Part shown: piece by piece, positions 10,245 to 28,539 of the stretch
How positions within the stretch are numbered: the stretch's first letter is position 1
Layout of the letters: the number at the start of each line of letters is the position of its first letter
Origin: Planctomycetota bacterium
Lineage (GTDB): Bacteria > Planctomycetota > Planctomycetia > Pirellulales > Lacipirellulaceae
Reading direction: 5' to 3'
Assembly: GCA_003576855.1 (NCBI GenBank)
Contig: QEVI01000011.1
Location: forward strand, 1-33,694
Length of the DNA stretch: 33,694 nucleotides
Made by a program: the position numbers and the translations under genes
Notes under the pieces: model-generated
Databases searched by the model: none
What the model was told of the DNA's origin: nothing
What the model saw: only the letters and a program-made list of their open reading frames with translations

Positions 10245-12823
10245 CACAACGACGGCTCCTCGCGGACCGCGCGGCGAGTGTGAATCGTTAAACCGGCCAG
10301 GTTCTTGGATCGGGCGGGGATCACCAGGCTTGCCGCCCACCCAACGCCGCAGCAAGTGAGAAAACCGATCGCTCCGTAAGTGAAAAAATGCAACGCCGTG
10401 ATGCGGGCGTACGCCAGCGCCGCCACGCTTACGACAGCGCCGACGATGGCGCCGCGTCCGTGAGCACGTCGTGAAAAGATGCCCAGGGCGAACAGGCCCG
10501 CCAGCGTGCTGCCGGCCAGCGCGAGCATGCCAAGAAATGCGTCCCACGCCGATGCGATATTGTACTTCGCCATAATAAGCGCGATCGCCGTTCCGAGCAG
10601 CCCCGAGCCGATCGTGACAAGTTGAGCGACGCGCAGTCGCCTCGCGTCGCTCATCGCGGGCCGTAGGCGGACATGGAAGTCGTTGACCCAGGCCGTCGCG
10701 ATGCCGTTGAGGCTACTGGTGGGCTGAGCGGCCGCGAAAATGCCCGCAACGACAAGCCCCCCCAGGCCTACAGGAAGCTCGTTGACGATGAACTGCGGGA
10801 ACACGGCGTCGTTCTGCAGCGTGGGGTCGAGGTTAGCGGGGTGGATCTTGTAGAACGCGTACAACGCCGTTCCCACCGAAAAAAACAACAGGCTCGACGG
10901 CAGCACCATAATGGCGTTGGTCCATATCGCCTGCGCCGCTTGCCGCGCATCGGGCGTTGAGATGTATCGCTGAACGATATCCTGTCCGGCGGTGTACGAG
11001 CTCAGCGTGATGAACAGGTTGCCCAGCAGGATCACCCAGCCGGTGGCGGCCGTCAGTTCCGGGGTCCAGCGAAGAGCGCCGAACAGCTTGTCGTCGGCCT
11101 GGGCGATGCTCCAGATTTCGGCGGCGCCGCCGGGAATGCTCGCCACGGCGGCGACGAGCGTGGCGATGGCGCCCGCCAAAAGTATGATCGTTTGCGCCAC
11201 GTCGGTCCACACCACCGACTCCAGTCCCCCTTGGAACGTCATCAAGATGCACAGCACGCCCATGATCGCGATGCACGCGTGGATTTCGATGTTGCTGACC
11301 GTCGCCAGCGCAAGCGCCGGCAAGTACAACACAATCGCCGTTCGACCCAGTTGCAAGGCGATGAACGCCGCGCTGGCGAACCAGCGGATGGCCAGGTTGA
11401 AGCGCAGTTCGAGGTACTCGTACGCGCTGGTGACGTTGAGCTGCCGAAAGAACGGCAGATAGTACGCTACGATGATCGGCGCCAAGAGCAGCACCGACGC
11501 GTTCGCCAACAGAAACGACCAGTCCGCGACGAACGACTTTGCAGGCACGGCCATGAACGTGATGCTGCTAAGCATCGTGGCGTAAATGCTCATCCCTGCG
11601 GCCCACCAAGGAATGCGCTGGCCGCTCCGGAAGAATTCGTCGCTGGTCCGCTGCGTGCCGACCGCCCATGCCACGGCGAGCATGATGATCGGGTACAGTC
11701 CCAGCGCGGCGTAGTTCCAGAGTCCGAACCTCGTCCGCCGCGACTCGGCCCGTAACGCCCAAGTTTCCGGCGACCGCACGCCCGGTCGCCGCTCGCCGCT
11801 CACCAACACCCAAGCGTCGTCCCAGCGAACCATGGGCGCCGTTACGCTCGGCGCCGGCGTGCGGCCAACTCCGGCCCAAACGTCGGTTACGGCGTTGTAC
11901 GCCAGCACGCCCGTCGCGAAGCCTGGATGCGATTGCGGAGGCTGAAAGCCGACGTTGGCGCCGTCGTCGCCGCCAAGGATCAAGAACTGCGACGGCCCGA
12001 TCGCCGGCGACGGCGACGGCGCGCCGGCCGCCGCGCGCGGCAGGTCCGCCAGCCGCGACCAGCCGCCGCCCGGGCGGTAGCGGTACGCGTCGGTCAAATA
12101 GCGGCGCTTCGGGGAACCGTCTTCGGCTGCCGACAGCTCGACGCCGCTGATGAGAAAAAAGCTGCCGTCTTGTACGGCGGCCACCGCCAGCATCCGTGGC
12201 GGACCGGGCCACGAATCCAGCGACTTCCACGCGGCGGTTGGACTCGCCAGATCGAGCGCGTAGAACGATCCAAGCGCCTCGACGGAGCTGGGCGACTCGC
12301 TGCCGCCGGCGATGTACAGCGTATCGCCCAACACGGCGCCGCAGGCATTGGCCACCGGTCGAGGCAGTTGCGGCAGCGGCCGCCGACGCAGCGAACCCTT
12401 CTGCAACGACAGCAAGAAGCAGTCGGCGTAGTGCCGCTGCGAATCACTGCCGCCGACGCACGCCACGCCGCCGGCCGTTGTGACGGATACGCCGTAAGCC
12501 AAGGGCCTGGGCAGCCGCCCGACCTGTTGCCAGGTTGCACGGGGCGCGTCGATCGTCCAGACGCGATCGTACCAGGCCTTCTGGCCCCCCTCCCAGGGCG
12601 CCCCTTCAGGAAAATTGGCGCCGCCCGCAACGAGCAATCGGTCGGCGCTGATCCCCGCGAACGCGCCGGCGACGCCGCGCGAATCCGGCACGGGCGAGAG
12701 CACCTGCCAGCGCAGCCCCGCTTCGCCTGCCTTGGGCTGCTCGCCCTGCACGCGAGTCGCCGCCACGCAACACGCGAGAACAGCAATCAAGCAATCACGG
12801 GTACGAGAACGCACGTCGGACAT
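10244..12823 (-). CDS. Sialic-acid mutarotase (Kelch, NanM-like) fused to sodium:solute symporter
   Basis: The protein has 859 residues. After a signal peptide (about 10-27), residues about 38-360 form a Kelch propeller with the cyclically permuted mutarotase signature AGGANFP...PWEGGQKAWYD and repeated AGG/CVGG strands. NanM converts alpha- to beta-N-acetylneuraminate. Residues about 368-845 are a sodium:solute symporter of 13-14 helices, with SDEFFRSGQRIPWWAAGMSIYATMLSSITFMA at its start and SSYTAGQDIVQRY in the core. Na+/sialic-acid symporters of this family are known. The signal peptide puts the propeller outside the inner membrane, next to the transporter mouth. The gene sits 6 bp after the esterase and overlaps the following sialidase. 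A sialic-acid substrate is inferred from this context. Confidence 0.9.
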   Translation of the reverse strand: MSDVRSRTRDCLIAVLACCVAATRVQGEQPKAGEAGLRWQVLSPVPDSRGVAGAFAGISADRLLVAGGANFPEGAPWEGGQKAWYDRVWTIDAPRATWQQVGRLPRPLAYGVSVTTAGGVACVGGSDSQRHYADCFLLSLQKGSLRRRPLPQLPRPVANACGAVLGDTLYIAGGSESPSSVEALGSFYALDLASPTAAWKSLDSWPGPPRMLAVAAVQDGSFFLISGVELSAAEDGSPKRRYLTDAYRYRPGGGWSRLADLPRAAAGAPSPSPAIGPSQFLILGGDDGANVGFQPPQSHPGFATGVLAYNAVTDVWAGVGRTPAPSVTAPMVRWDDAWVLVSGERRPGVRSPETWALRAESRRTRFGLWNYAALGLYPIIMLAVAWAVGTQRTSDEFFRSGQRIPWWAAGMSIYATMLSSITFMAVPAKSFVADWSFLLANASVLLLAPIIVAYYLPFFRQLNVTSAYEYLELRFNLAIRWFASAAFIALQLGRTAIVLYLPALALATVSNIEIHACIAIMGVLCILMTFQGGLESVVWTDVAQTIILLAGAIATLVAAVASIPGGAAEIWSIAQADDKLFGALRWTPELTAATGWVILLGNLFITLSSYTAGQDIVQRYISTPDARQAAQAIWTNAIMVLPSSLLFFSVGTALYAFYKIHPANLDPTLQNDAVFPQFIVNELPVGLGGLVVAGIFAAAQPTSSLNGIATAWVNDFHVRLRPAMSDARRLRVAQLVTIGSGLLGTAIALIMAKYNIASAWDAFLGMLALAGSTLAGLFALGIFSRRAHGRGAIVGAVVSVAALAYARITALHFFTYGAIGFLTCCGVGWAASLVIPARSKNLAGLTIHTRRAVREEPSL

Positions 12824-12829
12824 CGCTCC

Positions 12830-14476
12830 TCAGCCCGCGGTGCTAAAACTTCTCATCCACGATCGTCGCCGGTGCATGGCAAACACCGCGCACATTGCGG
12901 CGCCCAAGACGCACGCGCCCGGTTCAGGCACGGCGCGAAACCCCTGAAACGCCAAGTCGGCGACCGTGCCATCCCCCGCATGGCCGATCGTCCATCCCGC
13001 CGTCAAGCTGCCAGAGATGACGACCTGGTGAATATTGGATTGCGCAGCGCCGCCAAGCCTGTCGCGCGAAACAAAGCCAAAACTGCCGTTGGACAGCTCG
13101 CCGGTGCGGTACAGCACATTTCCAGCAAAGTCCAGGAACGTTGCGACGATCTGGTCTTCCGGCACGACAAAGCCTACATCAAAAGCAACGCTGGCCACAG
13201 TCGCCAGGCGATGTGGGTTGTGCGGATCCACAAACGTAAAGGTTATCGCCCTGCCGGCAGGCGTGGCGCCGGCGGCATCACCGACGACCCGCGGCGGCGG
13301 CGGAGGCAAACCGACCGAACCGACGATCAAGTCCGACGATGGAAGTTGCGGGTGACGATCGCCAAAGGTAACGCGATTATCGGATGTTTCAACAAGCAGA
13401 CCGACCTGCTGTTGACCGTTGACGCCGTCGACGAACCCCCGGAATTGCCCTTGCTGGACAAGGTTAGTACCCGGCAGCGGCCCGTCAACATCGGGAACGT
13501 AGTTGTCGAACACCACGCGGATCGCATCCGGCGCGTCGGCCACGGCTGAGAACCCCACGGACTCGACCAGAGGCAAATGCCCGCCTGCTTGGAGAAACCG
13601 CAGTGCGAACCTGCGGCCAATCTCAAGCTTCGCCGACTTATCGAAGTGTAGACCGTCATATAGCGATCCTGCCAGATCGAGGTTGGAGAAGTAATCGATC
13701 GTCGGATCCGCCAGCGCCTCCGCCGCTTGTCGCGAACGCACGAGGTCCCGCGTCGCACCCGGGGCCGCAATGCCCCCTACAACGGCATGCAGCGCAGCGG
13801 CTTGCGGAAAGTCGGCGCGAAGGTTGCCCACCAGCTCAGCCAGTCGTTGCCCGGAAATCGACGCCTCGGCAGCGCTGTCGCTTTCTCCCTGAAGATACAG
13901 CAGACCGGCGATTCTAAACGTGTGCCCGGCCCTGGCTAGTTCTGCCGTCGCCGCATTAACTGTATCGAGAACATGCTGATACATGTGGCCCGAAGCAAGG
14001 TTGGCCAGCAGCGCCGACTTCGACCACAGCGTATTACCGCCGCCGCCGCGGCTAGCCTTGATTAACATCAGGTCCGTGTGCCCAGCGTCGGCCATCGCCC
14101 TGGCGAAGCCGAACTCCGGGCCCCAGAATTCGGTATTGGCGCGGCCATCGCCCTGCTGCACTTGCAGCGTCGTAATCGACCCCGCGGAGCTGCCATACAG
14201 GTTGCTGATCGGATAGCTGCCGTTGGCGGAGGAGACATTGCTCCAAAAGAACCGCGTCGACGCATACGCTGAACCGCTGCCCGGACTGCGATCCGACTCC
14301 TGCGGATCGGCCGTCGTGCCCAGCATATTAGACTGGCCCGTCAGCACGTACACGTCGATTTCAGCCGCGTTGAGCGCGCAGCCGCGCATCGCCAGCACGT
14401 GCGATGCCCAGAGGCACGTTATGGCGCCAAAGACCAGCCGCCGGCCGTTCAACGCAGCGCTGCTCAAACGGTTCAT
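12830..14476 (-). CDS. Sialate O-acetylesterase-like SGNH hydrolase with PEP-CTERM anchor
   Basis: The protein has 548 residues with ATG at 14476; 21 further in-frame codons upstream look non-coding. The signal peptide is followed by a carbohydrate esterase domain of the SASA type. It has nucleophile Ser49 in LTGQSNMLG, an oxyanion-region KASRGGGGNTLW (about 140-151), the YLQGESD block (194-200), and catalytic Asp274 and His277 in YDGLHFD. Residues about 285-510 are a beta-rich region of unknown role. The C-terminus is a sorting signal, VPEP followed by a hydrophobic helix and HRRR. It probably removes O-acetyl groups that block sialidases or uptake. It lies between a sialidase gene (90 bp upstream) and the mutarotase/symporter. 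Acetylesterase substrate specificity is inferred; acetylxylan or other sugar esters are alternatives. Confidence 0.85.
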   Translation of the reverse strand: MNRLSSAALNGRRLVFGAITCLWASHVLAMRGCALNAAEIDVYVLTGQSNMLGTTADPQESDRSPGSGSAYASTRFFWSNVSSANGSYPISNLYGSSAGSITTLQVQQGDGRANTEFWGPEFGFARAMADAGHTDLMLIKASRGGGGNTLWSKSALLANLASGHMYQHVLDTVNAATAELARAGHTFRIAGLLYLQGESDSAAEASISGQRLAELVGNLRADFPQAAALHAVVGGIAAPGATRDLVRSRQAAEALADPTIDYFSNLDLAGSLYDGLHFDKSAKLEIGRRFALRFLQAGGHLPLVESVGFSAVADAPDAIRVVFDNYVPDVDGPLPGTNLVQQGQFRGFVDGVNGQQQVGLLVETSDNRVTFGDRHPQLPSSDLIVGSVGLPPPPPRVVGDAAGATPAGRAITFTFVDPHNPHRLATVASVAFDVGFVVPEDQIVATFLDFAGNVLYRTGELSNGSFGFVSRDRLGGAAQSNIHQVVISGSLTAGWTIGHAGDGTVADLAFQGFRAVPEPGACVLGAAMCAVFAMHRRRSWMRSFSTAG

Positions 14477-14566
14477 GGTGCAGCCCAAGCAGCGGTTGTT
14501 TGGAAACGGCTGGCTCGCGATAAGCATCCAACCGAGCAACCAATTGAAAACTCGTGGGCCCTCACC

Positions 14567-16717
14567 TCACGGTACACAGCGAGCGATCTGTCGACCGCCG
14601 ACCACGGCGATTGCGTAGAGGGCGAACATCGCCCGGCCTCCTGGCTCCGGCACGGCCCGCAGCGACGCGAACGCGTTGTCGCCGTTGGCGGCGTTAAACA
14701 GCACGACGAATTCGGCGAAATCGGCCAGATCCACCAGACCGCTCGAATTGAAGTCGCCCTCGCGGCGCCGTTGCTCGCTCGGCAAAGCGCTGGTGTCGAG
14801 CCGCATTCTGCCGCGAAAAACCGCCCAGTCTTCCGCCGTGATCGTCCGGTCCCCGTTCAGGTCGCCCAGCACATCCGGCAACGACACCCCCGTGTCAACG
14901 ACGACCGCGTCGAACGCCGAGCCGATTCGCAAGCCATCCACTAACCAGTCGGCGCTTACGCCCGCGGAAAGCCTGATCTGCTCGATCGTTTCGGCGCTGT
15001 TCTCCGTAGTCGTTCCGACGAGCTGCCAGTCGACTTGCGCTTCCGCCGCGGGCACATCGGCGGGGTCGCCGTACCAGGCCAGTGAAATCTGATCCGCGTT
15101 GGCCCCGCCAGAGCCGTCTTGAGCGACGATTCGCACGAGCAAAAGGTAAGTTCTATCGCGGGCCAAGGAGTCGGCCGGAGCGCTGACCACGGCGCCCAAT
15201 TGATTGACGAAAAAATTCTCACCGCTGCCCACGCCGAATGCCGCCAGCGTGGCGCCGGCCGCATCCTGCAAAAGAATGTCCAAGAACTCGTTGCCGCCGG
15301 AGTCCGTCCCATCGACGCTGCTGTGCCGCACAAACAGAGAGGCGTACAGCGCATGATTGGCATCCAGGTCGAACGCGCCCGCGCCGAGCCGTCGCGTCAG
15401 GCTCGCGCCGCGGAGCACCGCGTGTTGCTCGTCCCCGGCTGTGTAGTACCCGTCAAACTCCAACGCGCCGGCGGCCACGCTCGCGCCCGCATTCGTCCAC
15501 GCGCCTGACCATCCGACGCCCCCTCGAAACGGCGCGATCGCGTTGCCGAAGCCGTCGTAGTGCGACATCGACGCAGGATGCTCGGCCTTCTCCAACTCGA
15601 CTAAATCGAAGTTGACGTACCGAATGGTGTTGTGGTCGACTTCATAAACCAAGCCGATTGTCTCATCAGGCAGCCTTTCGATGACCGAATACGCGGCCGA
15701 CCCGCTTTGAATCTGGACGGGATTGATGAACGTCCGCCCCTCGTCGTAACTGGTCCACACGCCAATATTGTCGCGTGAGTTGCCGGCGCCGGGCGTACTG
15801 CCCAGCGGCCCGGAGAACAGTATTCGATCGCGGTCGTCGCCGCTGCGGCGGGCCGAATAGCGCACCAAGCCGGCGTCCACGGCGGTGATCGTGATGTCGC
15901 CCTGATGGGGGTCGCTCCAAGTGTCGCCGCCGTCGCGGCTAATGAAGCGGTTCCGCGCCGCGCCGCCTGATTGCCGGCCATCCCACAGCAGGTCGCCGTT
16001 GGTCAGTTCAACCACTTCGGATTCGTCCGCAAAACCCGGCGTCGAGCCGCTGCCGTAGGTCCAAGTGGCTCCGCCGTCGTCGCTATGCAACGCAACGCCG
16101 CGGTACGACGGCGGCCGGTGATGCGCCGGCACGAGCAGCCGGCCGTTGCGGTCCGGCGCGCCGTCCTGCCACTGCAGTTGAATGCCGCGGCCCGGCCCGG
16201 TGTTCAACGACGCCCACGAAGGGTCCTTCACCTGGCCGTTGATGTTCGCCGGGCCCGACCAGCTTTGCCCGTTGTCGGTGCTTCTTTGGTGATAGACGAC
16301 CGAAGAATTGCTTCCCAGGCCGACGGGAACTCCCGCTTGCCCCGTGTTCGTGGGCCACTGGACGTACTGCAGATGAACGTCGCCGCTAGTGCGGTCAACG
16401 ACGACCCGCGGGTCGGAGTAGTCGAACCCATTGAGATCGTGCAACGCCGATACGCTCGACCAGTTTCGCCCGCCGTCGGTGCTGCGTGTGTAGACAAGAT
16501 CGATGTCGCCGGGGCCGCCAGGGTCGCTCTGACTGGGCCTTCCTTCGGCAAATAGGAGCAGCGAACCGTCTTGTGCTACCGCAAAGCCGGGGATGCGGTA
16601 AACATGGTAGCCGTTGCCAGCAACCAGTGCGTCGGACTGGCCGAGGACCGCCGCCCAGCCGCTGCCGGCCAACGCCAACGTAGCGCACGCCAATAGTAAG
16701 TGCCGTACCAATGCCAC
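14567..16717 (-). CDS. Multidomain exo-alpha-sialidase with dockerin-like repeat and PEP-CTERM
   Basis: The protein has 716 residues if it starts at the GTG at 16717, which has AGAGAGGA about 8 nt upstream and yields a compact signal peptide. A TTG at 16744 would add nine residues. The sialidase domain (about 28-372) has YRIPG (Arg41), five Asp boxes (STDGGRNW, STDNGQSW, SDDGGATW, SRDGGDTW, SYDEGRTF), acid pair ADESEVVEL and Tyr343 (AAYSVIERL). A lectin-like beta-sandwich (about 385-610), a dockerin-like pair of EF-hand loops (DLNGDRTITAEDW, DFNSSGLVDLADF) and a PEP-CTERM tail (AVPEPGGR...) follow. It would be a surface-retained enzyme, in contrast to the unanchored sialidase at 9030. A -10-like TATAAG lies at 16785-16780, but no good -35 is seen. 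Confidence 0.9.
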   Translation of the reverse strand: MALVRHLLLACATLALAGSGWAAVLGQSDALVAGNGYHVYRIPGFAVAQDGSLLLFAEGRPSQSDPGGPGDIDLVYTRSTDGGRNWSSVSALHDLNGFDYSDPRVVVDRTSGDVHLQYVQWPTNTGQAGVPVGLGSNSSVVYHQRSTDNGQSWSGPANINGQVKDPSWASLNTGPGRGIQLQWQDGAPDRNGRLLVPAHHRPPSYRGVALHSDDGGATWTYGSGSTPGFADESEVVELTNGDLLWDGRQSGGAARNRFISRDGGDTWSDPHQGDITITAVDAGLVRYSARRSGDDRDRILFSGPLGSTPGAGNSRDNIGVWTSYDEGRTFINPVQIQSGSAAYSVIERLPDETIGLVYEVDHNTIRYVNFDLVELEKAEHPASMSHYDGFGNAIAPFRGGVGWSGAWTNAGASVAAGALEFDGYYTAGDEQHAVLRGASLTRRLGAGAFDLDANHALYASLFVRHSSVDGTDSGGNEFLDILLQDAAGATLAAFGVGSGENFFVNQLGAVVSAPADSLARDRTYLLLVRIVAQDGSGGANADQISLAWYGDPADVPAAEAQVDWQLVGTTTENSAETIEQIRLSAGVSADWLVDGLRIGSAFDAVVVDTGVSLPDVLGDLNGDRTITAEDWAVFRGRMRLDTSALPSEQRRREGDFNSSGLVDLADFAEFVVLFNAANGDNAFASLRAVPEPGGRAMFALYAIAVVGGRQIARCVP

Positions 16718-16859
16718 CTGAAGCGTCCTCTCTGCGTTCCGCAAGACTGCGCCAAGCGCGCCCCGGACGACGCGATTGGCTTATAGTAGCGCTGCCCAAC
16801 CAGCCGAATTCAATGCCCTGCGGCTGGATTAGCAGCGCCGCTACGCCTCCAGCGCTCAA

Positions 16860-19800
16860 TCAGTTGTCAGCAAGCCGACGCCGAGCCATCTGCCAGGCGA
16901 TCAGGCCGCACGCCAGCAGGGCCCCTGCCGAGGGTTCGGGAACCGGGGCCGACAGCAGCTCGAAGTTCAGCGCCAGCCCGACGGCGTCGAGCGCGGCGTG
17001 AACGATGTAGGCGTCGCCCAGATCGACGTCGCCGCTGTAATCCAGATCGCCTTGTTGCCGGGAGTTCCAGTCGCCGATTTGCAGGCCGTCGACGAGGAAC
17101 GTCTTTCGCCAGTGCGACACAAACGCCGTCGCGTCGGCGGCGTTGATCACGCCGTTCAAATCGACGTCGCCGGTACTGGTTACGCCTAGGCTGGCAAGCT
17201 TCTGCTTAATCCAATCATTGTCCTCCGACAGGTTGAGCGTTCCCCAGTGGGCCCCGCCCAGGTATCCGCGAACTGTGTTGGCGTCGCCGGGGTCCCGATC
17301 GGCGTTCTCGCCCCACAGAAACACGCGGACTTCGTCGATGGCGCCGGCGTAGAAGTTGTCGTCGTGAGTCCGATTGCCACCGATCGACAGCCCGCTCGCG
17401 TCCGGATCGTAAAACGTGTTGCTGGCGACGATGGCGACGCCGTTGACCAGCAGCGCGCCGCCGAACGCCGAGTGCCCGCCGACCGGATCGTCCGCCCCCG
17501 TGAGCTCCATGACATGCACCCAGCCGTTGGCGTCCAGCGTCGCAGCGACGGAAACGCCCGAATCGATCGATCCGTTTTGCCGCGCGGTTGGGTTGCCGGC
17601 GCCGTTAGGCCCGTCGTATTGCAGACCCCACGTGTCGCCGGCGGTAATGAAAATGCCATGCTGATTCGAGTCCATCACCAGGTCTTGCCGGTGCGGCGTA
17701 GCGGCTCCGAGGCCAGTGGGCCGCGCCCAAAGCTGGATGCCGCGGCCGAAAACCGTTTGATAATTGTGTGGAAACGCCGGCGTGTAACTGGCGTCGCCGT
17801 CGGAACTGACGCCGCTGGTCGACGGCGCATCGTACAATCCGTCGTCGGCAGCGTCCGGCGGAATCAGCGCGGTGGGAAAGAACGCGGCCGTGTTGTACAT
17901 GTGGTTGGGCGAGTTCAAGCTCACGTTAGTCGTCAACGCGTCGTCCAAGCCGTCGAACGCCGCGCCGTTGGCCGCGGTCGCCAGGCCAGGCCGATTCAGC
18001 CCGCCGACGCCGACGTTCACTGTGGTCACCCCGCCGTTGTTGACCAGATCCTGGTACGCGCCGCTGTTGATGGCTCCGGGAAACGCCGCGAGATGGACGC
18101 CCTGCGAGTCGTATCCAATGTCGGCCAGGTCGCCCAAGGTGTAATGGCGATCGTTGAACACGTCGGCTGACGCCCGATCGACAGGACCGGCGTGCGTGAA
18201 GCAAACCGCGACGGCGGCCGCCGCGCCAACTCCCAGCCGGCGGAGACGGCGCCAGGCAAGCATCGCCGCCGAGCCGAGCGCTAGCAGCACCGCCGGCGGT
18301 TCCGGGACGGCGGCCGTCGCAGCGACCGCCGTGCCGCTGCCCAACTGACGCTGCCATGCCAGGAAGTCGTTGCCGTCGCTATCGCCGTCGCCGTCGGCGT
18401 CGCTCCCGGCCGTCGCAGCGAAGTCACTCTTCCATGTCGCGAGGTCAACGCCATCGACTTCGCCGTCGCCGTCGAAATCGGCGGAAAACCCTCCTGCGAC
18501 ATACTCGACTGTGCCGTTGAGGACGGCGCCCGCCGGCAGGCCGTTGTTCGTGGCCGTAAAGGTAAACGCCAGGTCCTGGACGGCGCCCGGCGTGAAAATG
18601 CTGCCTAGCGACAATGGGCCGGCCGTCGTCACCGTCGTCGAGCCGGCCAAAAAGCCCTCGCCGATGAACGCCTGCCCGACATTGTCGAACTCCTCCCAAC
18701 TATCGCCATTGTTCTTGTTGCCGGGCGTCGGGTCGCCGCCCACGCCCTGCTCTTCCAAGCTACTCCAGCCGTTGGTCTTAAGAGAACTTGCGCTGGTGAT
18801 CGAGTAGCTGTTGATGCTGAAATTGAGCGCCGAACCTGGGTTGACGATCGACACGGCGCCCGAGGTGGTGTTAACCACTAGCTTCAACGAAGTCACCGGA
18901 GCGAACTCGGCGACGAACTCGTTCCCCCAATCTTGCTCCGCTCCCCCTTGCGTATGAATCTGGGCCGTGTCATTCAGCAGATAACCGGCGGCGTTGTCGC
19001 CCGTCCCGGTGTTGCTGCCGCCGGTGGTCACGCGATGGCGGAAGTTAGACACCTCGCCTTCGACGTTGTCCTCTGAAAACACGAACCAGTACTTGGAGCT
19101 TTTGGTCAGCAGCAAATTCGCGAAGTCAAATGAATACGTGGCGTTTTGGGTCGTCTCCGACCAAGCCACGGAGCTGCTCGACGATCCCACATAGCCGCTG
19201 AACAAGTCGGTGGCGCCGTTGAGCGACGTGTACACGTCTAGAAACACCGGCGTCGTCGCGGCCGTCGTCTGGCGCGTGCCGGCGCCGAAGCTGGGCGTCG
19301 TCGCGTCGTCCGGCCGCTTCAAGGTGATTTTCTGCAGTACGAATAGATCCGTGAGCGAGCCCGGCGGGCTAACGCTCGCCGGGAACGTGCCGCCATCGCC
19401 CCGAAACGCAAAAGCCGACGTCGTGGCCTTATCGCCGGCGGCGGCGGTCCCCGGGTTGGTGATCGTGTTGGTCTGGGCGGAAGCGATCGACCCGCCGCCG
19501 ATCCCCGCGACGACGCCCATCGCCGCCAGCGCCCAAAGCCGCCCTGTGCGCGTCCGCGCGTGCTTGCGTCGAGTCATGATGTAAGTCGTCCCGCAGATTA
19601 CCAGGAGAGTGGCCGTCGTGGGCTCAGGAATAGCCGCCAACGCGCCGATGCCGTTAACCGCGTCGTAGGCCGCCTCGAAGACCGCGAAGTCCGCCAGCGA
19701 GTAAAGCCCATCCGCGTTCAAATCGCCCAAGTTGTAAAGTTCGGCGCGATGCGACGCAGGGGCTCCGACCGCCGCCAGGTTGCTCCCGTGGAACTTCGAC

Positions 19801-21050
19801 TTGAAAACGGCCCAGTCGGCTGGATCAACGTCGCCGTCGAAGTCCAGATCGCCCGTGGCGAACGGCGCGCCGCCGTTGCCGGTATAGCTAATGACGAAGT
19901 CCGAACCGGCGTTGCTCAGAATCGAGCCGTCGTCCAGCAGCAATTCCATCGCCACGTCCTCAAACGGCGACTTCCGCCAGGCATTGCCGAAGTTCCAGGC
20001 GCCGGTCGTCGCCGGGACGTCGCCGCCGTTGTCGTCTCCCGTCGAGCTGAGCACGGCTTCCGCCACTTCGTTCGACGTACCTGCCAGCGTCGTCCACTGG
20101 TCGTTGTCGTTCGACAGGTTCGAGCCTGTCGATTGCTTGTCCCAAGCGGCCGGATTCAGGCCGCCGGAGCCGCTCGTAATGGTGTAACCGATGATGTTGC
20201 TTAGCGGTGCGCCGGTCGTGTTCCGGAACGTCATCGCGCTGGTGTTGCGATTGATTTCCAGCGTCAACACGCCTTGATCCGCGATCGGCGAAAAAGCGCC
20301 GCTCATATCGTAGCGCACATACTGAATCTCGAATGGATCGACCGGGTTGCCGAGGCTGGAACAGCAATCGCCGACGATCAGCCGCGTATTCGCGTCGGAC
20401 GCTTGTCGGCTGACGCCCACGCCGGAAATCGGCACGTTGTCGCGCCACACGTGGTAGGTCCCCGTCGGTCCCGCGGTCAGGTTATTCGCCTCGTAGGCGA
20501 TGCGATACGTATGAAACGCGTCGGCGTTGTTGACTCCGCTGATCAGGTCCGCCCCCGTTTCGCCATAGCCTACCGCATCTTGCGCAATGCGGACGATCAG
20601 GCGGCTTCCGCCCACGGCCATCCAGAGGACGAAGTTGTCGTTCAGCGAGCTGGCTTCGTTCACCTTGCCGCTCAGCTCGATCGTCCAGTTGCCCGTGCCG
20701 AGTTCCCAAGGCGTCGAACCGGTGTCCTGCTGTAGCCAGCCGTTGTTGCCGGCGCCCGCGGGCGTGGTGATCAGCGAGTTGGTGACCCGCAGCGCCGACC
20801 CGCTTAGCGACAGCGCCGGCAGCGGATCGCTCCCCGCGGCGTAGCCAGCCTGCGACCAGCCGTTCTGAAACGCGCTGCCGTCCCAAATCTGGTTGCCGTT
20901 GTATTGGTGCGCGAACGTGCTGGAGCTCACGTTAAAACCATCGAGGCCGTGCGCCCACGACGCCACGCTGGCCGCCAGCGCCACAGCAACGAGTAATGCC
21001 GGCAGCCTCGGAACTCCGCTTTCCGCGGCGATGATCGATAACCTGTTCAT
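16860..21050 (-). CDS. Giant protein with three secreted modules and three PEP-CTERM signals (polyprotein-like)
   Basis: The frame is one continuous run of 1396 residues. ATG 21050 is preceded by AAGGG at 9 nt. Module 1 (about 1-490) has a signal peptide, a lectin-like sandwich, a beta domain (VLTLEINRNTSAMTF...), EF-hand loops DLDFDGDVDPADW and DLNADGLYSLADF, then IPEP at 474-477, a hydrophobic helix and MTRRKHARTR. Module 2 (about 492-930) opens with a signal-like helix ending SIASAQ. It has a domain paralogous to the protein at 21343-22074, a second copy of the beta domain (KLVVNTTSGAVSI), DGDG loops and VPEP at 915-918 with WRRLRR. Module 3 (about 930-1396) has another signal-like helix, a LamG-like domain, EF-hand loops and a terminal VPEP at 1370-1373. 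No enzyme signature was found; glycan binding is plausible from the lectin-like folds. It may be processed into three anchored proteins. Confidence 0.85.
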   Translation of the reverse strand: MNRLSIIAAESGVPRLPALLVAVALAASVASWAHGLDGFNVSSSTFAHQYNGNQIWDGSAFQNGWSQAGYAAGSDPLPALSLSGSALRVTNSLITTPAGAGNNGWLQQDTGSTPWELGTGNWTIELSGKVNEASSLNDNFVLWMAVGGSRLIVRIAQDAVGYGETGADLISGVNNADAFHTYRIAYEANNLTAGPTGTYHVWRDNVPISGVGVSRQASDANTRLIVGDCCSSLGNPVDPFEIQYVRYDMSGAFSPIADQGVLTLEINRNTSAMTFRNTTGAPLSNIIGYTITSGSGGLNPAAWDKQSTGSNLSNDNDQWTTLAGTSNEVAEAVLSSTGDDNGGDVPATTGAWNFGNAWRKSPFEDVAMELLLDDGSILSNAGSDFVISYTGNGGAPFATGDLDFDGDVDPADWAVFKSKFHGSNLAAVGAPASHRAELYNLGDLNADGLYSLADFAVFEAAYDAVNGIGALAAIPEPTTATLLVICGTTYIMTRRKHARTRTGRLWALAAMGVVAGIGGGSIASAQTNTITNPGTAAAGDKATTSAFAFRGDGGTFPASVSPPGSLTDLFVLQKITLKRPDDATTPSFGAGTRQTTAATTPVFLDVYTSLNGATDLFSGYVGSSSSSVAWSETTQNATYSFDFANLLLTKSSKYWFVFSEDNVEGEVSNFRHRVTTGGSNTGTGDNAAGYLLNDTAQIHTQGGAEQDWGNEFVAEFAPVTSLKLVVNTTSGAVSIVNPGSALNFSINSYSITSASSLKTNGWSSLEEQGVGGDPTPGNKNNGDSWEEFDNVGQAFIGEGFLAGSTTVTTAGPLSLGSIFTPGAVQDLAFTFTATNNGLPAGAVLNGTVEYVAGGFSADFDGDGEVDGVDLATWKSDFAATAGSDADGDGDSDGNDFLAWQRQLGSGTAVAATAAVPEPPAVLLALGSAAMLAWRRLRRLGVGAAAAVAVCFTHAGPVDRASADVFNDRHYTLGDLADIGYDSQGVHLAAFPGAINSGAYQDLVNNGGVTTVNVGVGGLNRPGLATAANGAAFDGLDDALTTNVSLNSPNHMYNTAAFFPTALIPPDAADDGLYDAPSTSGVSSDGDASYTPAFPHNYQTVFGRGIQLWARPTGLGAATPHRQDLVMDSNQHGIFITAGDTWGLQYDGPNGAGNPTARQNGSIDSGVSVAATLDANGWVHVMELTGADDPVGGHSAFGGALLVNGVAIVASNTFYDPDASGLSIGGNRTHDDNFYAGAIDEVRVFLWGENADRDPGDANTVRGYLGGAHWGTLNLSEDNDWIKQKLASLGVTSTGDVDLNGVINAADATAFVSHWRKTFLVDGLQIGDWNSRQQGDLDYSGDVDLGDAYIVHAALDAVGLALNFELLSAPVPEPSAGALLACGLIAWQMARRRLADN
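18165..18308 (-). other. Internal PEP-CTERM / signal-peptide hinge 2 in the giant protein
   Basis: The same design appears a second time: VPEP, hydrophobic segment PAVLLALGSAAMLA, basic WRRLRRLG, then GVGAAAAVAVCF and a possible cleavage site before ADVF. An ATG at 18263-18261 (residue 930) lies just before the basic run. No Shine-Dalgarno sequence is seen before it. Confidence 0.7.
19473..19631 (-). other. Internal PEP-CTERM / signal-peptide hinge 1 in the giant protein
   Basis: This stretch encodes IPEP, a hydrophobic segment (TTATLLVICGTTYIM), a basic run TRRKHARTRTGR, then a second hydrophobic segment ending in an SIASA-Q signal-peptidase-like site. An ATG at 19577-19575 (residue 492) could start an independent protein with a textbook signal peptide, but no close Shine-Dalgarno sequence precedes it. 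No stop codon separates the modules. Confidence 0.7.
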
Positions 21051-21079
21051 GTGGCTCAACCCTTGTCTCAAAGGCATGG

Positions 21080-21095
21080 TGCACGCCCACGTGCA
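21080..21095. promoter_or_regulatory. Inverted repeat upstream of the giant PEP-CTERM gene
   Basis: TGCACG-CCCA-CGTGCA is a perfect 6-bp inverted repeat 30 nt before the ATG at 21050. It contains CACGTGC, a core also present in the 14-bp palindrome before the neighbouring PEP-CTERM gene (22112-22125). The spacing to the start codons is similar (about 41 and 45 bp from centre). It is a candidate operator or mRNA-leader structure. Confidence 0.35.
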
Positions 21096-21291
21096 TGGTA
21101 AGAACGACCGGCTCGAATTATCGCGGTAACCACAGCTCGACCTGCCGCAGCTCACAATCGCGCTTAATCGGCTACGCCTCCATGCAGCTCTCTCCGCATA
21201 CTGGCGCAGCAGCATCCATCAGCGCGTCTGACGCCGATTTGGCAACTTCCTCCGATAAGGTTCGCGCTGATTAGAAAGCTGCAGCGAGCGT

Positions 21292-21324
21292 GCCGCCGAC
21301 GGCCGCGGCCGGGCCGTCGGCGGC
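21292..21324 (-). terminator. 13-bp GC-only perfect stem-loop after the PEP-CTERM gene
   Basis: GCCGCCGACGGCC (21292-21304) and GGCCGTCGGCGGC (21312-21324) are exact reverse complements around a 7-nt loop. The structure begins 18 bp beyond the stop of the gene at 21343-22074. There is no T-tract, so it may be a transcript-end or mRNA-stabilising structure and not a classic rho-independent terminator. The rest of the 292-bp spacer shows only the repeat at 21080. Confidence 0.5.
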
Positions 21325-21342
21325 GATCTGCTGCTGCTCCTA

Positions 21343-22074
21343 CTAACGCCGCGACCGAGACCGCGTCGCGGCCGTCAGGCCGACGGCCGCCAGCGCCAAC
21401 GCCGCCCCCGACGGCTCAGGCACTGACGTGAACTCCACGACGTACTCCGCGGCCCAGTCGCGCGAGTTGCCGCCCTGGTCGAGAATCTGAAATGCGTCGC
21501 TCACCAGGTAGCCCTGGCCCGGTCCAGCAGTGGCGTCATTGCCGCTGGTATTCACGCGGAGCCGGAAGTTGGAGAACTCCCCGTCCACGTTGTCCTCGGA
21601 AAACGCAAACCAATACTTCGAGTTGCTTTGCAGCGGCAAATTGGCGAAGTCAAATGAGTAGCCTTCCCCCTCCAGCGGCATGTCCTGCCAGGCGATCGAG
21701 TTGGTCGAAGCGCCCAGGAATCCGCTGAAGCTGTCTGTCGCCGAGTCCGCGGCGGCGTATACCTCCAAGAAGACCGGCGTCGCCGCACTCGTCGTTTGGC
21801 GAGGCCCCGTGCCGAAGCTGGGAGTCGTCGGGTTAGTTGGATCCGAACTCGCCGGCCGCACCAGCGTGACCTTGGTCAATTGGATGTGCGGCCTGAGCGA
21901 ACCCGCCGGATCGATGCTGGCCGGATAGTTGCCCGCGTCGGCCCGGAACGCAAAACCCATGATATTCGCCCGATCGCCGGCGACGCCCGACCACGGATTG
22001 GTAACAGTCGCCGCCCGCGCCGAGGCGACTATGCCCCAGGTCACAGCGACAGAAAAGACAAGCTTGTGCATCAT
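21343..22074 (-). CDS. PEP-CTERM protein, paralogue of module 2 of the giant protein
   Basis: The protein has 243 residues with ATG 22074 (MMHKLVF...) and AAAGGGGA about 7 nt upstream. A signal peptide (1-22) is followed by a single beta-rich domain. It runs in the order FAFRADAGNYPASI, TPSFGTGPRQTT, TPVFLEVY, YSFDFANLPL, KYWFAFSEDNVDGEFSNFRLRV and GGNSRDWAAEYVVEF. The tail VPEPSGAALALAAVGL...RSRSRR is a PEP-CTERM signal. The domain aligns block by block with residues about 530-715 of the giant protein encoded just downstream, so one arose from the other by duplication. I do not recognise a named family. A surface structural or ligand-binding role is inferred only from its position among sialidase genes. 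Confidence 0.85.
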   Translation of the reverse strand: MMHKLVFSVAVTWGIVASARAATVTNPWSGVAGDRANIMGFAFRADAGNYPASIDPAGSLRPHIQLTKVTLVRPASSDPTNPTTPSFGTGPRQTTSAATPVFLEVYAAADSATDSFSGFLGASTNSIAWQDMPLEGEGYSFDFANLPLQSNSKYWFAFSEDNVDGEFSNFRLRVNTSGNDATAGPGQGYLVSDAFQILDQGGNSRDWAAEYVVEFTSVPEPSGAALALAAVGLTAATRSRSRR

Positions 22075-22111
22075 TAGTCGTCCCCTTTCGAGCAGCTAAA
22101 GCAGAGTTGAA

Positions 22112-22125
22112 TCCGCACGTGCGGA
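22112..22125. promoter_or_regulatory. 14-bp perfect palindrome upstream of a PEP-CTERM gene
   Basis: TCCGCACGTGCGGA is its own reverse complement and lies 38-51 nt before the ATG at 22074. It shares the CACGTGC core with the inverted repeat at 21080-21095. It is a candidate binding site for a dimeric regulator, such as one of the two GntR-type proteins of the locus. Assignment to a regulator is speculative. Confidence 0.4.
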
Positions 22126-22193
22126 GGAAAAGAAGCCTGTATTGACGAGCAGTCCACAGTGCGCCGCGCCGGCGCCTTGGTCCCCTTGGGCAG

Positions 22194-22679
22194 TCAGCTC
22201 GCACTGCCGCGGAGATTGAAGTCCTCTATCTGCGGGTTCTGTTCTCCTGTGACGGTAATGATCAGCCCTGGCCGAGCGTTGTACTCCGGCGGCAGGAATT
22301 GCTCGCGGCCTTCAAACCGATAGACCGGCAGCGACGTCTTCTGAGGCCGACCGCCCGCCGCCAGCAGGTCTCCCTCAGCCGCTCCCTCTGCGGCCGCCCC
22401 GACGCCTTCGATAATGAACGCCCGCAGAATGACTCGATGCGTCCCGATCGGCACGCCGCCCTTCTGGCCGATGTGATACTTGCCGTCCACGATCGGCGCC
22501 GTCGACGCGACCCCCGGCGTGCCGGCCTCGGGTTCAAGGCGAATGTCTCCGTTGACGACTTTTTTGCCATTGAACGTGACGGTGCCTTCGACCGGAACGC
22601 TCTGCGACTTGCCGCTGCAACCGGCAGCCGCCAGCAGCGCGATCGCGCCCAACGCGGTTTTGGTAAATACTGCGCTCAT
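22194..22679 (-). CDS. Lipoprotein, carboxypeptidase-regulatory-like (planctomycete type)
   Basis: The protein has 161 residues with ATG at 22679; the earlier in-frame start at 22751 would hide the signal. Residues 5-21 end in a lipobox, LLAAAGC. A single beta-sandwich follows, opening VEGTVTFNGKKVVNGDIRLEPEAG, with GKYHIGQKGGVPIGTHRVILRA in the middle and LPPEYNARPGLIITVTGE at the end. This is the pattern of the short transthyretin-like lipoproteins that planctomycetes often encode beside DUF1559 pilin-like proteins. Here it lies 68 bp downstream of one. An insertion of about 30 residues rich in Ala, Glu and Gly (EGVGAAAEGAAEGD) sits in the second half. The role is unknown; attachment of surface proteins or glycans is a guess. 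Confidence 0.82.
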   Translation of the reverse strand: MSAVFTKTALGAIALLAAAGCSGKSQSVPVEGTVTFNGKKVVNGDIRLEPEAGTPGVASTAPIVDGKYHIGQKGGVPIGTHRVILRAFIIEGVGAAAEGAAEGDLLAAGGRPQKTSLPVYRFEGREQFLPPEYNARPGLIITVTGEQNPQIEDFNLRGSAS

Positions 22680-22747
22680 ACGGTTAAAACAAAGTGCATG
22701 TCGACTGCTAACGCATGGTCGTGATCCGCGAACGGAGTAATGGCGCC

Positions 22748-23779
22748 TCACCGCGGCGGCGGTGCGCCCGGCGTAACCGGCTTCCGGTACGGAGCTCCGC
22801 CCTCGACGTCGCCGCCGTCGCGCGTGGTCAGCACGCCGAGGAGGTTTTGATCGATGCTGTCGGACAAGAACTGCACGCTGGCGTCCACCATGGCGAAGTG
22901 GGCTCCGCCGACGTGAAAACTGGAAAAGCCAGCTTCGTCGAAGTACTCGTAATGGCGGTTGCCGCCGTCTCCATCGAACGGGTCGGTCCGGTCATCGCGG
23001 CCGCCAGGGACGCTTCCGCTGCCGTTGATCCCCGCCGCCGTATCTTGAACGTTCCACGTGACGTACATGTGGCCGATGTACGCCGCGCCGCCGGAGGGGT
23101 GGAGTCCGCGGCCGCCGGTGACTTCCCCCACCATCAACGTGCGGCTCGTGCCGTCGCCGACGCGCTTCAACTCGACGGGAAAATAATTGAACAGCACCCC
23201 TCCGCCGTCCGCGACCGGCTGCGGGTTCGAGTAAAAGGCGTTAAACGCATCGGCTACTCCCGCGAAATTGGTCTCGCGGAAGTCGTCGTTCTCGCCCTGG
23301 CCGTGCTGCACGCCGCTGCAGCATTCGACCCAGTGATCGGTCTCCGACGGCGCGGAGGGACAAAGGTACGACGAAACGAGCGTCCCGGCGCCGGCGCTCG
23401 CCGCGAAGTCGCCCACCGGCTTCTTCATATCCATCCGCGCGAAGGCGGCGCCCCCCTCCAAATAGGGCAAGATGAACGCGCCCCAACCATAGCCGTGCGA
23501 CACCGTGCCCGGCGGCACTAGCGGATCATTGGCGAAGTTCATAATCGTGCCCTGCGGCAACGATCCCTTCGCGCTCTCATAGTTCAACAGCGCCAGCGCC
23601 GTCTGCTTGGCGTTGTTCTGGCACGCCGATCGGCGCGCCGATTCCCGCGCAGCTTGCACGGCCGGCAGCAGCAGCGCCACGAGCACCCCGATGATGGCGA
23701 TCACCACCAAAAGCTCGACGAGGGTGAATCCCCGCAAAGCGGTTCGGCGCGAATCCGGCGAACGATGGCGGCGGCACAT
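22748..23779 (-). CDS. DUF1559 pilin-like protein with type IV prepilin N-terminus
   Basis: The protein has 343 residues. It begins MCRRHRSPDSRRTALRG, then FTLVELLVVIAIIGVLVALL, a type III/IV signal cleaved before Phe by a prepilin peptidase. A long amphipathic helix (AARESARRSACQNNAKQ) follows. The C-terminal globular domain matches DUF1559, a family much expanded in Planctomycetes, with YGWGAFILPYLE, LCPSAP and a late His motif. The usual H-x9-DG signature reads HVGGAHFAMVDA, so the Gly is replaced by Ala. It is followed by the lipoprotein and PEP-CTERM genes and preceded by a transcriptional regulator (90 bp). A pseudopilin or surface fibre used in glycan capture is a hypothesis from context. 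Confidence 0.9.
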   Translation of the reverse strand: MCRRHRSPDSRRTALRGFTLVELLVVIAIIGVLVALLLPAVQAARESARRSACQNNAKQTALALLNYESAKGSLPQGTIMNFANDPLVPPGTVSHGYGWGAFILPYLEGGAAFARMDMKKPVGDFAASAGAGTLVSSYLCPSAPSETDHWVECCSGVQHGQGENDDFRETNFAGVADAFNAFYSNPQPVADGGGVLFNYFPVELKRVGDGTSRTLMVGEVTGGRGLHPSGGAAYIGHMYVTWNVQDTAAGINGSGSVPGGRDDRTDPFDGDGGNRHYEYFDEAGFSSFHVGGAHFAMVDASVQFLSDSIDQNLLGVLTTRDGGDVEGGAPYRKPVTPGAPPPR

Positions 23780-23869
23780 GCCAACTCCTCCTACGAGACG
23801 AGTTCCACGAGTAGTCGCAACGACAGGCGACGGCGCGACCCATCGCCGCGAGGTCGGCGGTTGTCGGCG

Positions 23870-24988
23870 TTACCGCCGGCGCTGATCGTCGTTTCCGTTA
23901 CGCCGATCGCCCGGCGTTGCCGGATACTGAAAATGGACGGGAATCAGGATCGACCGCAATTCGTCCTGCTCCTTGCGCGAGGCGGCGGTCAGCACCTTCG
24001 AGACATGCTCGATCTGTGCGGCCAGCGACATGCTCGAACAGACCCGAGCGAACGGCAGCGGGCCGTCGGGCGGTGCATGGCTTCCGCTCACGACGCACGG
24101 CAACCGGCGGCTGCCGCCCAGCTCTTCGCACACAATGTTCGCGTAAAAATCGTTGCGGCACAGGAAGCCGTCCGGCGGATCGGCGTCGGCCAATATTTCA
24201 TGCAGCGATTGCTCGACCACCTCGCGCTCGGCGGGAAGGCTGCGGATCTTCAATGAGTCCAGCGCTACTCCAGCCGCGCTGAGCGTCGCCGTCGCCGAGT
24301 CGATCATGGCATGGTCGCCGAAGCGCCACAGCGCGTGCGTCAGAATCGCAAATCGCTTCGCCCCTTGTTGCCGCGCATACTCGGCGATCATCCGCCCTAC
24401 CGAAACCTGATCGTGCTCCACGCACGGCAGGTTGACTCCTGGATACGCCTGGCCAAATACCACGGCCGGCAGGCCCGACTCGCTGACGCGAAGCTGGACG
24501 TCGCGCGAACAACGAATCAGCACGAAACCCTCGCGCGTCGACTGGCCGATCCGCTCGATGACCTGATTGATGTATCGCTTGGCGGCCGCGTCCAGAATGT
24601 GATGCACCTGAACCGTCACGCCGGACAACGTCTTGCTGAATTCATCGACCAGCACATCGCTGGAGAAGGTCTGCGTGCGGTGATAGTCCATGGCCATCAC
24701 CAGATGAAGCACGTCTAGGTCATGTCGCATCTGGCCCGCCGGGTGAAACAGGGGACCGACGAACGTGCCCCGGCTCCGCTGCCGGACGAGTATCTGCCGC
24801 TCCGCAAGCGTTTGCATGGCGCGGTGCATCGTCATCGGCGCGACGGAGAAGACGTGGCTCGCCTCGGCCGCCGTCAGGTAGCGATCGCCCGGCCGCAGGC
24901 CTTTCTGACGCATATCGCCTTCGAGCTGGGCCGCCAGTCGCTCGATCGTCGTCGAAGGTAATACGCCGCTGCCCATTTGACCCAACAT
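23870..24988 (-). CDS. GntR-type winged-helix regulator with LacI/periplasmic-binding-like sensor domain
   Basis: The protein has 372 residues. The N-terminal winged helix (about 10-77) has RLAAQLEGDMRQKGLRPGDRYLTAAEASHVFSVAPMTMHRAMQTL and ends RQRSRGTFVG, as in GntR proteins. The remaining part (about 90-350) resembles the sugar-binding fold of LacI/ribose-binding proteins, with EGFVLIRCS, LPAVVFGQ, VSVGRMIAEYARQQGAKRFAILT and DGFLCRNDFYANIVCEEL. This is the AraR-like domain order. It is probably a sugar-responsive repressor or activator for the surface-protein and sialidase genes downstream. The ligand is unknown; sialic acid, ManNAc or a glycan fragment would suit the locus. The start at ATG 24988 has only a weak ribosome-binding site, and the next plausible Met is residue 5. 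Confidence 0.88.
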   Translation of the reverse strand: MLGQMGSGVLPSTTIERLAAQLEGDMRQKGLRPGDRYLTAAEASHVFSVAPMTMHRAMQTLAERQILVRQRSRGTFVGPLFHPAGQMRHDLDVLHLVMAMDYHRTQTFSSDVLVDEFSKTLSGVTVQVHHILDAAAKRYINQVIERIGQSTREGFVLIRCSRDVQLRVSESGLPAVVFGQAYPGVNLPCVEHDQVSVGRMIAEYARQQGAKRFAILTHALWRFGDHAMIDSATATLSAAGVALDSLKIRSLPAEREVVEQSLHEILADADPPDGFLCRNDFYANIVCEELGGSRRLPCVVSGSHAPPDGPLPFARVCSSMSLAAQIEHVSKVLTAASRKEQDELRSILIPVHFQYPATPGDRRNGNDDQRRR

Positions 24989-25070
24989 GCCTGCAGTCGT
25001 GCGGCAGGAGCTTCAAAAAGCCGCGAGAGAACCTAGTAAAGGGCCGGTCGCTCGCGTTGCACGTTGCTGA

Positions 25071-25160
25071 ATTTAGTAGAAGCTGTTGAAAATTTCAAGA
25101 TATTTACCATCTATTTTCAGAAAAAACCAGAAATAACACAACTCCTTCAATAACAGATAC
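25071..25160. other. AT-rich island in the 323-bp spacer between epimerase and regulator genes
   Basis: This 90-bp stretch has 25 G or C bases (28%), in sharp contrast with the GC-rich surroundings. It lies in the spacer 24989-25311. It contains a 13-bp palindrome, TTGAAA-A-TTTCAA (25086-25098), and several T-runs. It probably holds the promoter and operator of the regulator gene (ATG 24988, minus), but no convincing -35/-10 pair could be fixed. Frames through it are not protein-like. Confidence 0.45.
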
Positions 25161-25311
25161 TTAAAACAACAGTGCCACTCGTATTCGGAGCGAAATGTCA
25201 TAAAGCCAGCCGCCTTGTAACAGCATTTGTCGCCGCCGACCGCGGCCTCGGCAGGCTTTCCAGCGTGAACACCTGCGCCCCCCGCTTCCCATCGTCGGCA
25301 AGCGGTTGAGA

Positions 25312-26493: not shown

Positions 26494-26585
26494 GTCCCCA
26501 CCTCGTGCGCAATCCGCGGCGCGCGGACCGGCGGCAGCATTGCGGCGGCGACGGCGCACCAGCCATCCGCCCGCCAGTTCGCCGT

Positions 26586-27605: not shown

Positions 27606-27726
27606 CGGTTTTCGGCTTTCGTATAGTTTCAACGCGGCCGTCGAGTTGCATCGATCGGCAAGGCGGAAGCCGCGGTTCGTGAGGGCGAGCTCTCGCCAGC
27701 ACGGAGTTGACGCCGTCGCGGAGCCC

Positions 27727-28446: not shown

Positions 28447-28510
28447 GGTGCGCCGTCTCGTGCATAAGCGGGGCAGGGATAGACCCGGTCGGCCGACCGG
28501 CTGTCCGTAT

Positions 28511-28539
28511 GTTATAACGTCGCATAGCGCGGCGTTCAA
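28511..28539 (-). promoter_or_regulatory. Promoter with overlapping palindrome for the GntR/FCD gene
   Basis: On minus, TTGAAC (28539-28534) and TATAAC (28516-28511) are spaced 17 bp, a strong sigma-70-type match. The -10 lies inside the near-palindrome ATGTTATAACGT (28509-28520), whose core GTTATAAC is perfect. A GT...AC operator of the GntR kind placed there could allow autorepression. This placement supports the GTG start at 28446, with a leader near 58 nt. Confidence 0.5.

Follow-up and report, generated by a model that had tools for sequence, protein, structure and literature searches.

Three-module PEP-CTERM frames of Lacipirellulaceae as likely secretory polyproteins

Introduction

Sorting signals of the LPXTG and PEP-CTERM type are taught and annotated as strictly C-terminal, with one per protein. 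What, then, is made from a single open reading frame that carries three of them? Such a frame lies on the minus strand at 16860–21050 of the window, by which we mean the whole 33,694-nucleotide stretch of contig QEVI01000011.1 that was analysed. The source is a 417-contig Lacipirellula draft genome (Lacipirellulaceae, Planctomycetota). An initial annotation of the frame had proposed a membrane-threaded polyprotein, and had named two findings that would refute it: a sequencing error hiding stop codons, or homologues that are always three separate genes.

PEP-CTERM signals sit near the extreme C-terminus, 87% of them with fewer than ten further residues, and where "two" or "multiple" PEP-CTERMs are mentioned these are counts per genome, not per protein (PMC1569441). 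Two of the three signals in the 1396-aa frame fail this criterion, as they are internal, with 922 and 481 aa still to follow, and the third alone is terminal.

Results

One open frame with three sorting signals

The frame runs without interruption for 1396 codons from ATG 21050 to the stop codon at 16860–16862. It is also open further upstream (16860–21215, minus strand) and would give 1451 aa if begun at ATG 21215, but ATG 21050 is the start with a signal peptide directly behind it. Because GC3 is high along its whole length (0.78–0.87 in every 100-codon block), junctions included (0.83 at the first, 0.77 at the second), the frame is coding throughout.

Three modules of about 440–475 residues each make up the frame, and each ends in an EF-hand/dockerin-like pair followed by a PEP-CTERM-type segment of PEP, hydrophobic helix and basic run. 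The PEP motifs stand at residues 475, 916 and 1371 (window 19628, 18305 and 16940), which agrees with the initial annotation (about 474, 915 and 1370), and its EF-hand pairs do precede all three, with Dockerin_1 finding two stretches.

All features described here are on the minus strand. Signal peptide 1 (20952–21050, residues 1–33, MNRLSII...ALLVAVALAASVASWA) is inferred from its n-, h- and c-region pattern. The mature part of module 1 (19629–20951) comprises a variable N-terminal domain, a conserved domain (LTLEINRNTSAMTF...) that is also present in module 2, and an EF-hand pair (19656–19853, GDLDFDGDVDPADWAVF...LGDLNADGLYSLADFAVF) recognized from its sequence and the Dockerin_1 stretches in the frame. 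Internal PEP-CTERM 1, its PEP and hydrophobic helix, follows at 19575–19628 (junction model A5, own genome, E 8.1e-14). The net positive loop TRRKHARTRTGR (19539–19574) is common to this signal and to internal signal peptide 2 (19476–19538). Module 2 (mature part 18306–19475) repeats the order of N-terminal domain, conserved domain and EF-hand pair (18336–18479, ADFDGDGEVDGVDLATW...SDADGDGDSDGNDFLAW). Its N-terminal domain is paralogous to a stand-alone single-module PEP-CTERM protein at 21343–22074, with 53% identity to 21421–22050. Internal PEP-CTERM 2 (18252–18305; model A5, E 3.5e-14) is followed by basic loop 2, RRLRR (18237–18251), and by internal signal peptide 3 (18165–18236). Module 3 (mature part 16941–18164, defined from alignments A1 and A6) has a DRxYxLGD head, a laminin-G/ConA-like domain and an EF-hand pair; Pfam finds Laminin_G_3 at 17319–17735 (PF13385, E 1.4e-7, 32.2 bits against a cut-off of 27.6) and Dockerin_1 at 16989–17171 (PF00404, best stretch residues 1349–1409 of the 1451-aa version). 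The terminal PEP-CTERM (16863–16940) lies 26 aa from the stop. Predicted structures of module 3 and of the segment from junction 1 through module 2 to junction 2 reached a pLDDT of only 31 (AlphaFold, alignment of 5 sequences).

Each junction couples a sorting signal to a new signal peptide

Both internal PEP-CTERMs lead directly into a further Sec signal peptide that ends in AxA, at ...TRRKHARTRTGRLWALAAMGVVAGIGGGSIASA/Q (SIASA/Q at residue 525) and ...RRLRRLGVGAAAAVAVCFTHAGPVDRASA/D (DRASA/D at residue 962). Judged by pattern, a signal peptide is present at the start of the frame and after each internal PEP. As the signal peptide begins at once, the basic run has two functions: it closes the PEP-CTERM on the cytoplasmic side and forms the n-region of what follows. 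Judged from this pattern, each junction of the frame is a putative two-helix hairpin with a basic cytoplasmic loop. The internal signal peptides were absent from the initial annotation, and they complete the topology of the model.

The same anatomy of PEP-helix, loop and second hydrophobic helix is found in 70 junctions of homologues, where AxA is present in 65 and the loop has a net charge of +2 to +8 (mean +4.1). Using fixed criteria on all fetched loci, we find a signal peptide behind 140 of 148 internal PEP sites, and behind only 5 of 159 terminal PEP sites when these are read in frame past the stop; some of the five resemble starts of neighbouring genes. Chance adjacency of a hydrophobic stretch is ruled out by this comparison. 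The count for internal sites is somewhat favoured by selection, since junction models were used to retrieve some of the loci, but loci fetched purely by protein homology (the 70-junction set) give the same pattern. A 118-column junction model likewise has its full-length matches in open frames, and matches to its PEP half usually reach a stop.

A model for export and processing

We consider it likely that the frame encodes a secretory polyprotein, in which three exosortase substrates are made as one chain, which signal peptidase and exosortase then divide into surface proteins that are sorted separately. Signal peptide 1 would begin export of the chain, and the helix of PEP-CTERM 1 would act as a stop-transfer sequence, leaving PEP outside and the basic run inside. 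The next helix would serve as an internal signal peptide that restarts export, and the cycle would be repeated at junction 2. By the positive-inside rule, the loop would be cytoplasmic, and the outer ends of helix 1 and helix 2 would be marked by PEP and AxA, respectively. Cutting by signal peptidase I after each AxA and by exosortase at each PEP would remove a hairpin of about 30–60 residues, and would leave three proteins in a 1:1:1 ratio, as if they had come from separate genes.

This model rests on observations of the open frame and its junction anatomy, on the recurrence of the architecture, on modules inherited together, on junctions under selection and on a genome that has both enzyme families; the topology in vivo and both cuts are inferred. 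Against the model, exosortase would have to accept a hairpin in place of a lone C-terminal helix, something still to be shown for PEP-CTERM proteins. Furthermore, the cleavage sites are inferred without proteomics, and the internal PEPs of the 1396-aa frame fall below curated models.

Sorting signals and enzymes

Only the terminal PEP of the 1396-aa frame passes TIGR02595 (19.5 bits, cut-off 16), and neither internal PEP, cut out and searched alone, matches any NCBIfam model. The few long-tailed PEP-CTERM examples may be non-functional according to Haft et al. 2006 (PMC1569441), which also counts against the proposed processing. The low scores of the internal PEPs also fit a chain cut by signal peptidase only, as would result if exosortase does not accept a hairpin: each upstream module would stay anchored by two helices, that of its PEP segment and that of the spent signal peptide, and no exosortase site would exist at the internal PEP. 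The internal signal peptides are indeed formed at least as well as the PEP signals. We nevertheless find this unlikely, as PEP is invariant at the internal sites in alignments and the internal sites of other genomes score as full PEP-CTERMs. Those of a paralogue on contig C407 of the same genome lie above the Pfam PEP-CTERM cut-off, and TIGR02595 matches at 10 places in one 2531-aa frame and at 7 in a 2427-aa frame.

The genome encodes both enzymes that the polyprotein model calls for, with two exosortase matches (PF09721, E 7e-56 and 2e-36) and a signal peptidase I. In two other genomes, exosortase domains (G027:C58:16917–17675 and G011:C2:93067–93819; handles of this form are our own) lie in frames of 1744 and 1755 aa, far above the usual size, which are possibly fusions.

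Fused and split forms of the modules

Relatives divide the modules in several ways. As the alternative ARRANGEMENTS, G003 has modules 1 and 2 in one 924-aa frame and module 3 as the next gene (479 aa), and G022 has module 1 (555 aa) followed by modules 2 and 3 fused (939 aa). One set in G018, a genome that also holds a dozen intact polyproteins, is fully split into genes of 551, 492 and 448 aa, all three of which end in a PEP-CTERM of their own, and G053 carries four single-PEP genes in tandem. On gene layout alone, fused and split forms look interchangeable; natural splits at either junction or both are what would be expected if the mature products are separate proteins. These arrangements show that fusion of the modules is preferred, not essential.

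They also bear on whether the chain is cut at all. It could remain one surface protein that spans the membrane several times and keeps its three globular parts tethered, and the strong conservation of module order and size (median 1421 aa) could reflect a need to stay joined. We hold this to be improbable, however, given that relatives, and even the same genome, carry the modules as two or three separate genes and that complete signal peptides with AxA would be pointless in a chain that is never cut.

Translation and inheritance as one chain

Upstream ribosomes must read through all junctions, as no stop separates the modules. Between mid-helix 1 and the signal-peptide core, 107 of the 148 junctions contain no ATG, and 29 contain no ATG, GTG or TTG, so that in these 29 separate initiation of the downstream module with the usual codons is impossible. 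Translation of the modules as a single chain is well supported.

The modules have also travelled together. Across 25 three-module frames, the module distance matrices agree with Mantel r values of 0.66, 0.80 and 0.64 (the largest r in 2000 permutations was 0.30), and the nearest relative of each copy of module 1 or 2 is the module at the same position in another frame (50 of 50), never the other module of its own frame. It follows from both results that the three-module gene predates its spread and that its modules were inherited together. In five close pairs, pN/pS is 0.50–0.57 at the junctions, 0.15–0.37 in the body and 0.33–0.72 in terminal PEP tails. The ratios are rough, with synonymous sites near saturation, but the similarity between junctions and tails indicates that the junctions are translated and held by purifying selection like ordinary PEP tails.

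There is very little room for modules translated separately from internal starts, with the missing stops being incidental. A Met does stand just before the second helix at some junctions (for example, in the G019 copies) and could be a relic of separate genes, but every ribosome from upstream continues, 29 of the junctions offer no start codon, and the modules co-evolve as one gene.

Recurrence within the family

A single such frame in a 417-contig draft could be an error. The same genome has a second three-module frame of 1411 aa on contig C407, and a protein search of 40 relatives returned many frames of 1340–1510 aa with modules 1, 2 and 3 matched in that order; several of these frames are in single-contig genomes. 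One subfamily of the three-module frame is found in a closed chromosome, NZ_CP036339.1 of Lacipirellula limnantheis I41 (locus L112, 5103–9398). A module-3 model gives 85 matches, spread over 25 of the 44 family genomes. Frames of at least 1150 aa (median 1421) hold 60 of them, two-module frames of 900–1149 aa hold 7, and frames under 600 aa hold 18; some of the short frames may be contig ends. Neither of the refuting findings named at the outset is met: the homologues are not always three separate genes, and a stop-hiding error is excluded by some 60 frames of about 1400 aa in one family, single-contig and closed genomes among them. That three genes were fused by sequencing or misassembly, a suspicion the draft state of the source invites, is ruled out for the family by its closed genomes and about 60 cases with conserved junctions, and can be dismissed. 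The membrane-threaded polyprotein of the initial annotation remains the best supported reading, with the cutting itself inferred.

Distribution outside the family

Searching 297 genomes order-wide with the family-specific junction, the full-length hits among the matches listed are all in Lacipirellulaceae. A general junction model finds full junctions outside this family too. In a class sample of 298 genomes (E<=1e-9), full junctions among the matches listed are almost all from Lacipirellulaceae, plus G061 and G086, and in a phylum sample of 294 genomes the only full junction in a long open frame outside the own genome, again among the matches listed, is in G374. Several more families have one or two junctions. 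These counts are lower bounds, as only the best 15–150 candidates per genome were scored, and they cover planctomycete genomes only.

The longest frames come from G069, of another Pirellulales family, where 2531 and 2298 aa hold 10 and 8 PEP-CTERMs; the phenomenon seems to be at its most extreme in this lineage. Both (L147 on G069:C91 and L148 on G069:C80) are from one draft genome and have nearly identical junctions; at residue 1968 of L147 there is no immediate signal peptide, and a long charged linker takes its place. A 2427-aa frame of G086 (L152, 1094–8374, minus strand) has 7 PEP-CTERMs. Seven beads of about 330 aa make it up, and the near-identity of their starts (VTIPTVPVGNAGN) suggests that an entire PEP-CTERM gene was recently duplicated in tandem within one frame; by its general appearance, the repeated unit may be similar to SUMF1-type PEP-CTERM proteins. 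The 7-, 8- and 10-module frames are independent expansions. In the distant planctomycete G374, a 1241-aa minus-strand frame (L153) links a sulfatase-like enzyme module to a second module through a PEP-CTERM/signal-peptide junction, so polyproteins can include enzymes as well.

On balance, we lean towards a wider view, in which planctomycetes make co-translated chains of 2–10 exosortase substrates that are joined by hairpins and cut by both enzymes, giving fixed-ratio sets from one promoter.

Locus context and possible role

The polyprotein gene sits in a sialic-acid utilisation locus (10244–28539, minus strand). The locus encodes a GntR/FCD regulator (NanR-like), a DHDPS-family lyase (NanA-like), a GlcNAc 2-epimerase, a second GntR regulator, a DUF1559 pseudopilin-like protein (22748–23779; PF07596, E 4.5e-47), the single-module paralogue, the polyprotein, a BNR sialidase-like protein (14567–16744; PF13088, E 2.9e-20) with a dockerin-like region and a C-terminal PEP-type signal, and a sialate acetylesterase. 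An 859-aa frame in the locus joins a NanM-type kelch epimerase to an SSF symporter.

Among the most frequent neighbours of 17 polyproteins in other genomes, DUF1559 recurs 15 times, BNR 6, DHDPS-family proteins 5 and, as regulators of the sugar type, Peripla_BP_3 8, AraC 6 and GntR 4. In G018, which has 84 DUF1559 matches, a DUF1559 gene is found within 5 kb of 11 of 12 polyproteins, against a mean of 2.1 and a maximum of 8 in 5000 random trials, a hint that the two work as a pair. We infer that in a substrate-specific regulon each polyprotein provides the component bound to the surface, possibly for glycan binding; that its products capture glycans at the surface, here sialic acid, is likewise an inference.

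Dockerin_1 is found in module 3 and in 17 of 26 homologues. A search for cohesin (PF00963) gave no match in the own genome (92% complete), in G002 or in G016, and one or two matches each in G003 and G018. As the own genome lacks a cohesin match, the dockerin-like pairs probably serve as calcium-binding linkers or have another binding partner, and membership of a cellulosome is rejected despite their presence. The cohesins at G018:C1:2374297–2375274 and G003:C1:6327345–6327608 lie in giant frames of 3520 and 4005 aa; dockerin-like pairs are abundant.

Discussion

Three-module PEP-CTERM frames are real, conserved and, as far as we searched, undescribed; processing of their products is likely but unproven. 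The initial annotation was aware of no described system of this type, and we too found none in the open-access literature searched, where no paper treats PEP-CTERM together with polyprotein or dockerin, "midcut", or tandem or internal PEP-CTERMs. The question is directly testable, since a closed genome with a polyprotein belongs to a named strain, Lacipirellula limnantheis I41. To our knowledge, exosortase cutting is still poorly characterised biochemically, and each junction would serve as a natural single-chain test substrate for the enzyme.

The modules share with the PEP-CTERM/exosortase (EpsH) system (TIGR02595/PF07589) the PEP motif, the hydrophobic helix, the basic run, an exosortase in the genome and many substrates per genome. 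They differ in that their signals are internal and repeated, each with a new signal peptide behind it. In this conserved class of frames up to nine signals are internal and almost every one leads into a fresh signal peptide, which shows that a sorting signal can end one protein and start the next. By its name, the midcut-by-XrtH family (NCBIfam NF033207) is a precedent for internal sites, with an exosortase cut in mid-protein. The model has no match in the 1396-aa frame at E<=1 and gives 20 bits on the seven-module G086 frame, below its cut-off of 45, and membership is thereby ruled out; we know of no polyprotein array among midcut-by-XrtH proteins.

The FbcH cytochrome b/c1 precursor of Bradyrhizobium is reportedly split at an internal signal peptide by signal peptidase. 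This differs from the present case in having two respiratory subunits, one cut and no sorting signals. In the structural polyproteins of the flavivirus type, stop-transfer and signal helices alternate as hairpins and are cut by signal peptidase. The working logic is the same, but those polyproteins are viral, are made at the eukaryotic ER and involve no exosortase, and we claim no homology. If the cuts proposed here happen, the polyprotein is a bacterial means of making surface proteins in stoichiometric sets, and the planctomycete frames would stand beside the hairpin polyproteins of enveloped viruses as their bacterial equivalent.
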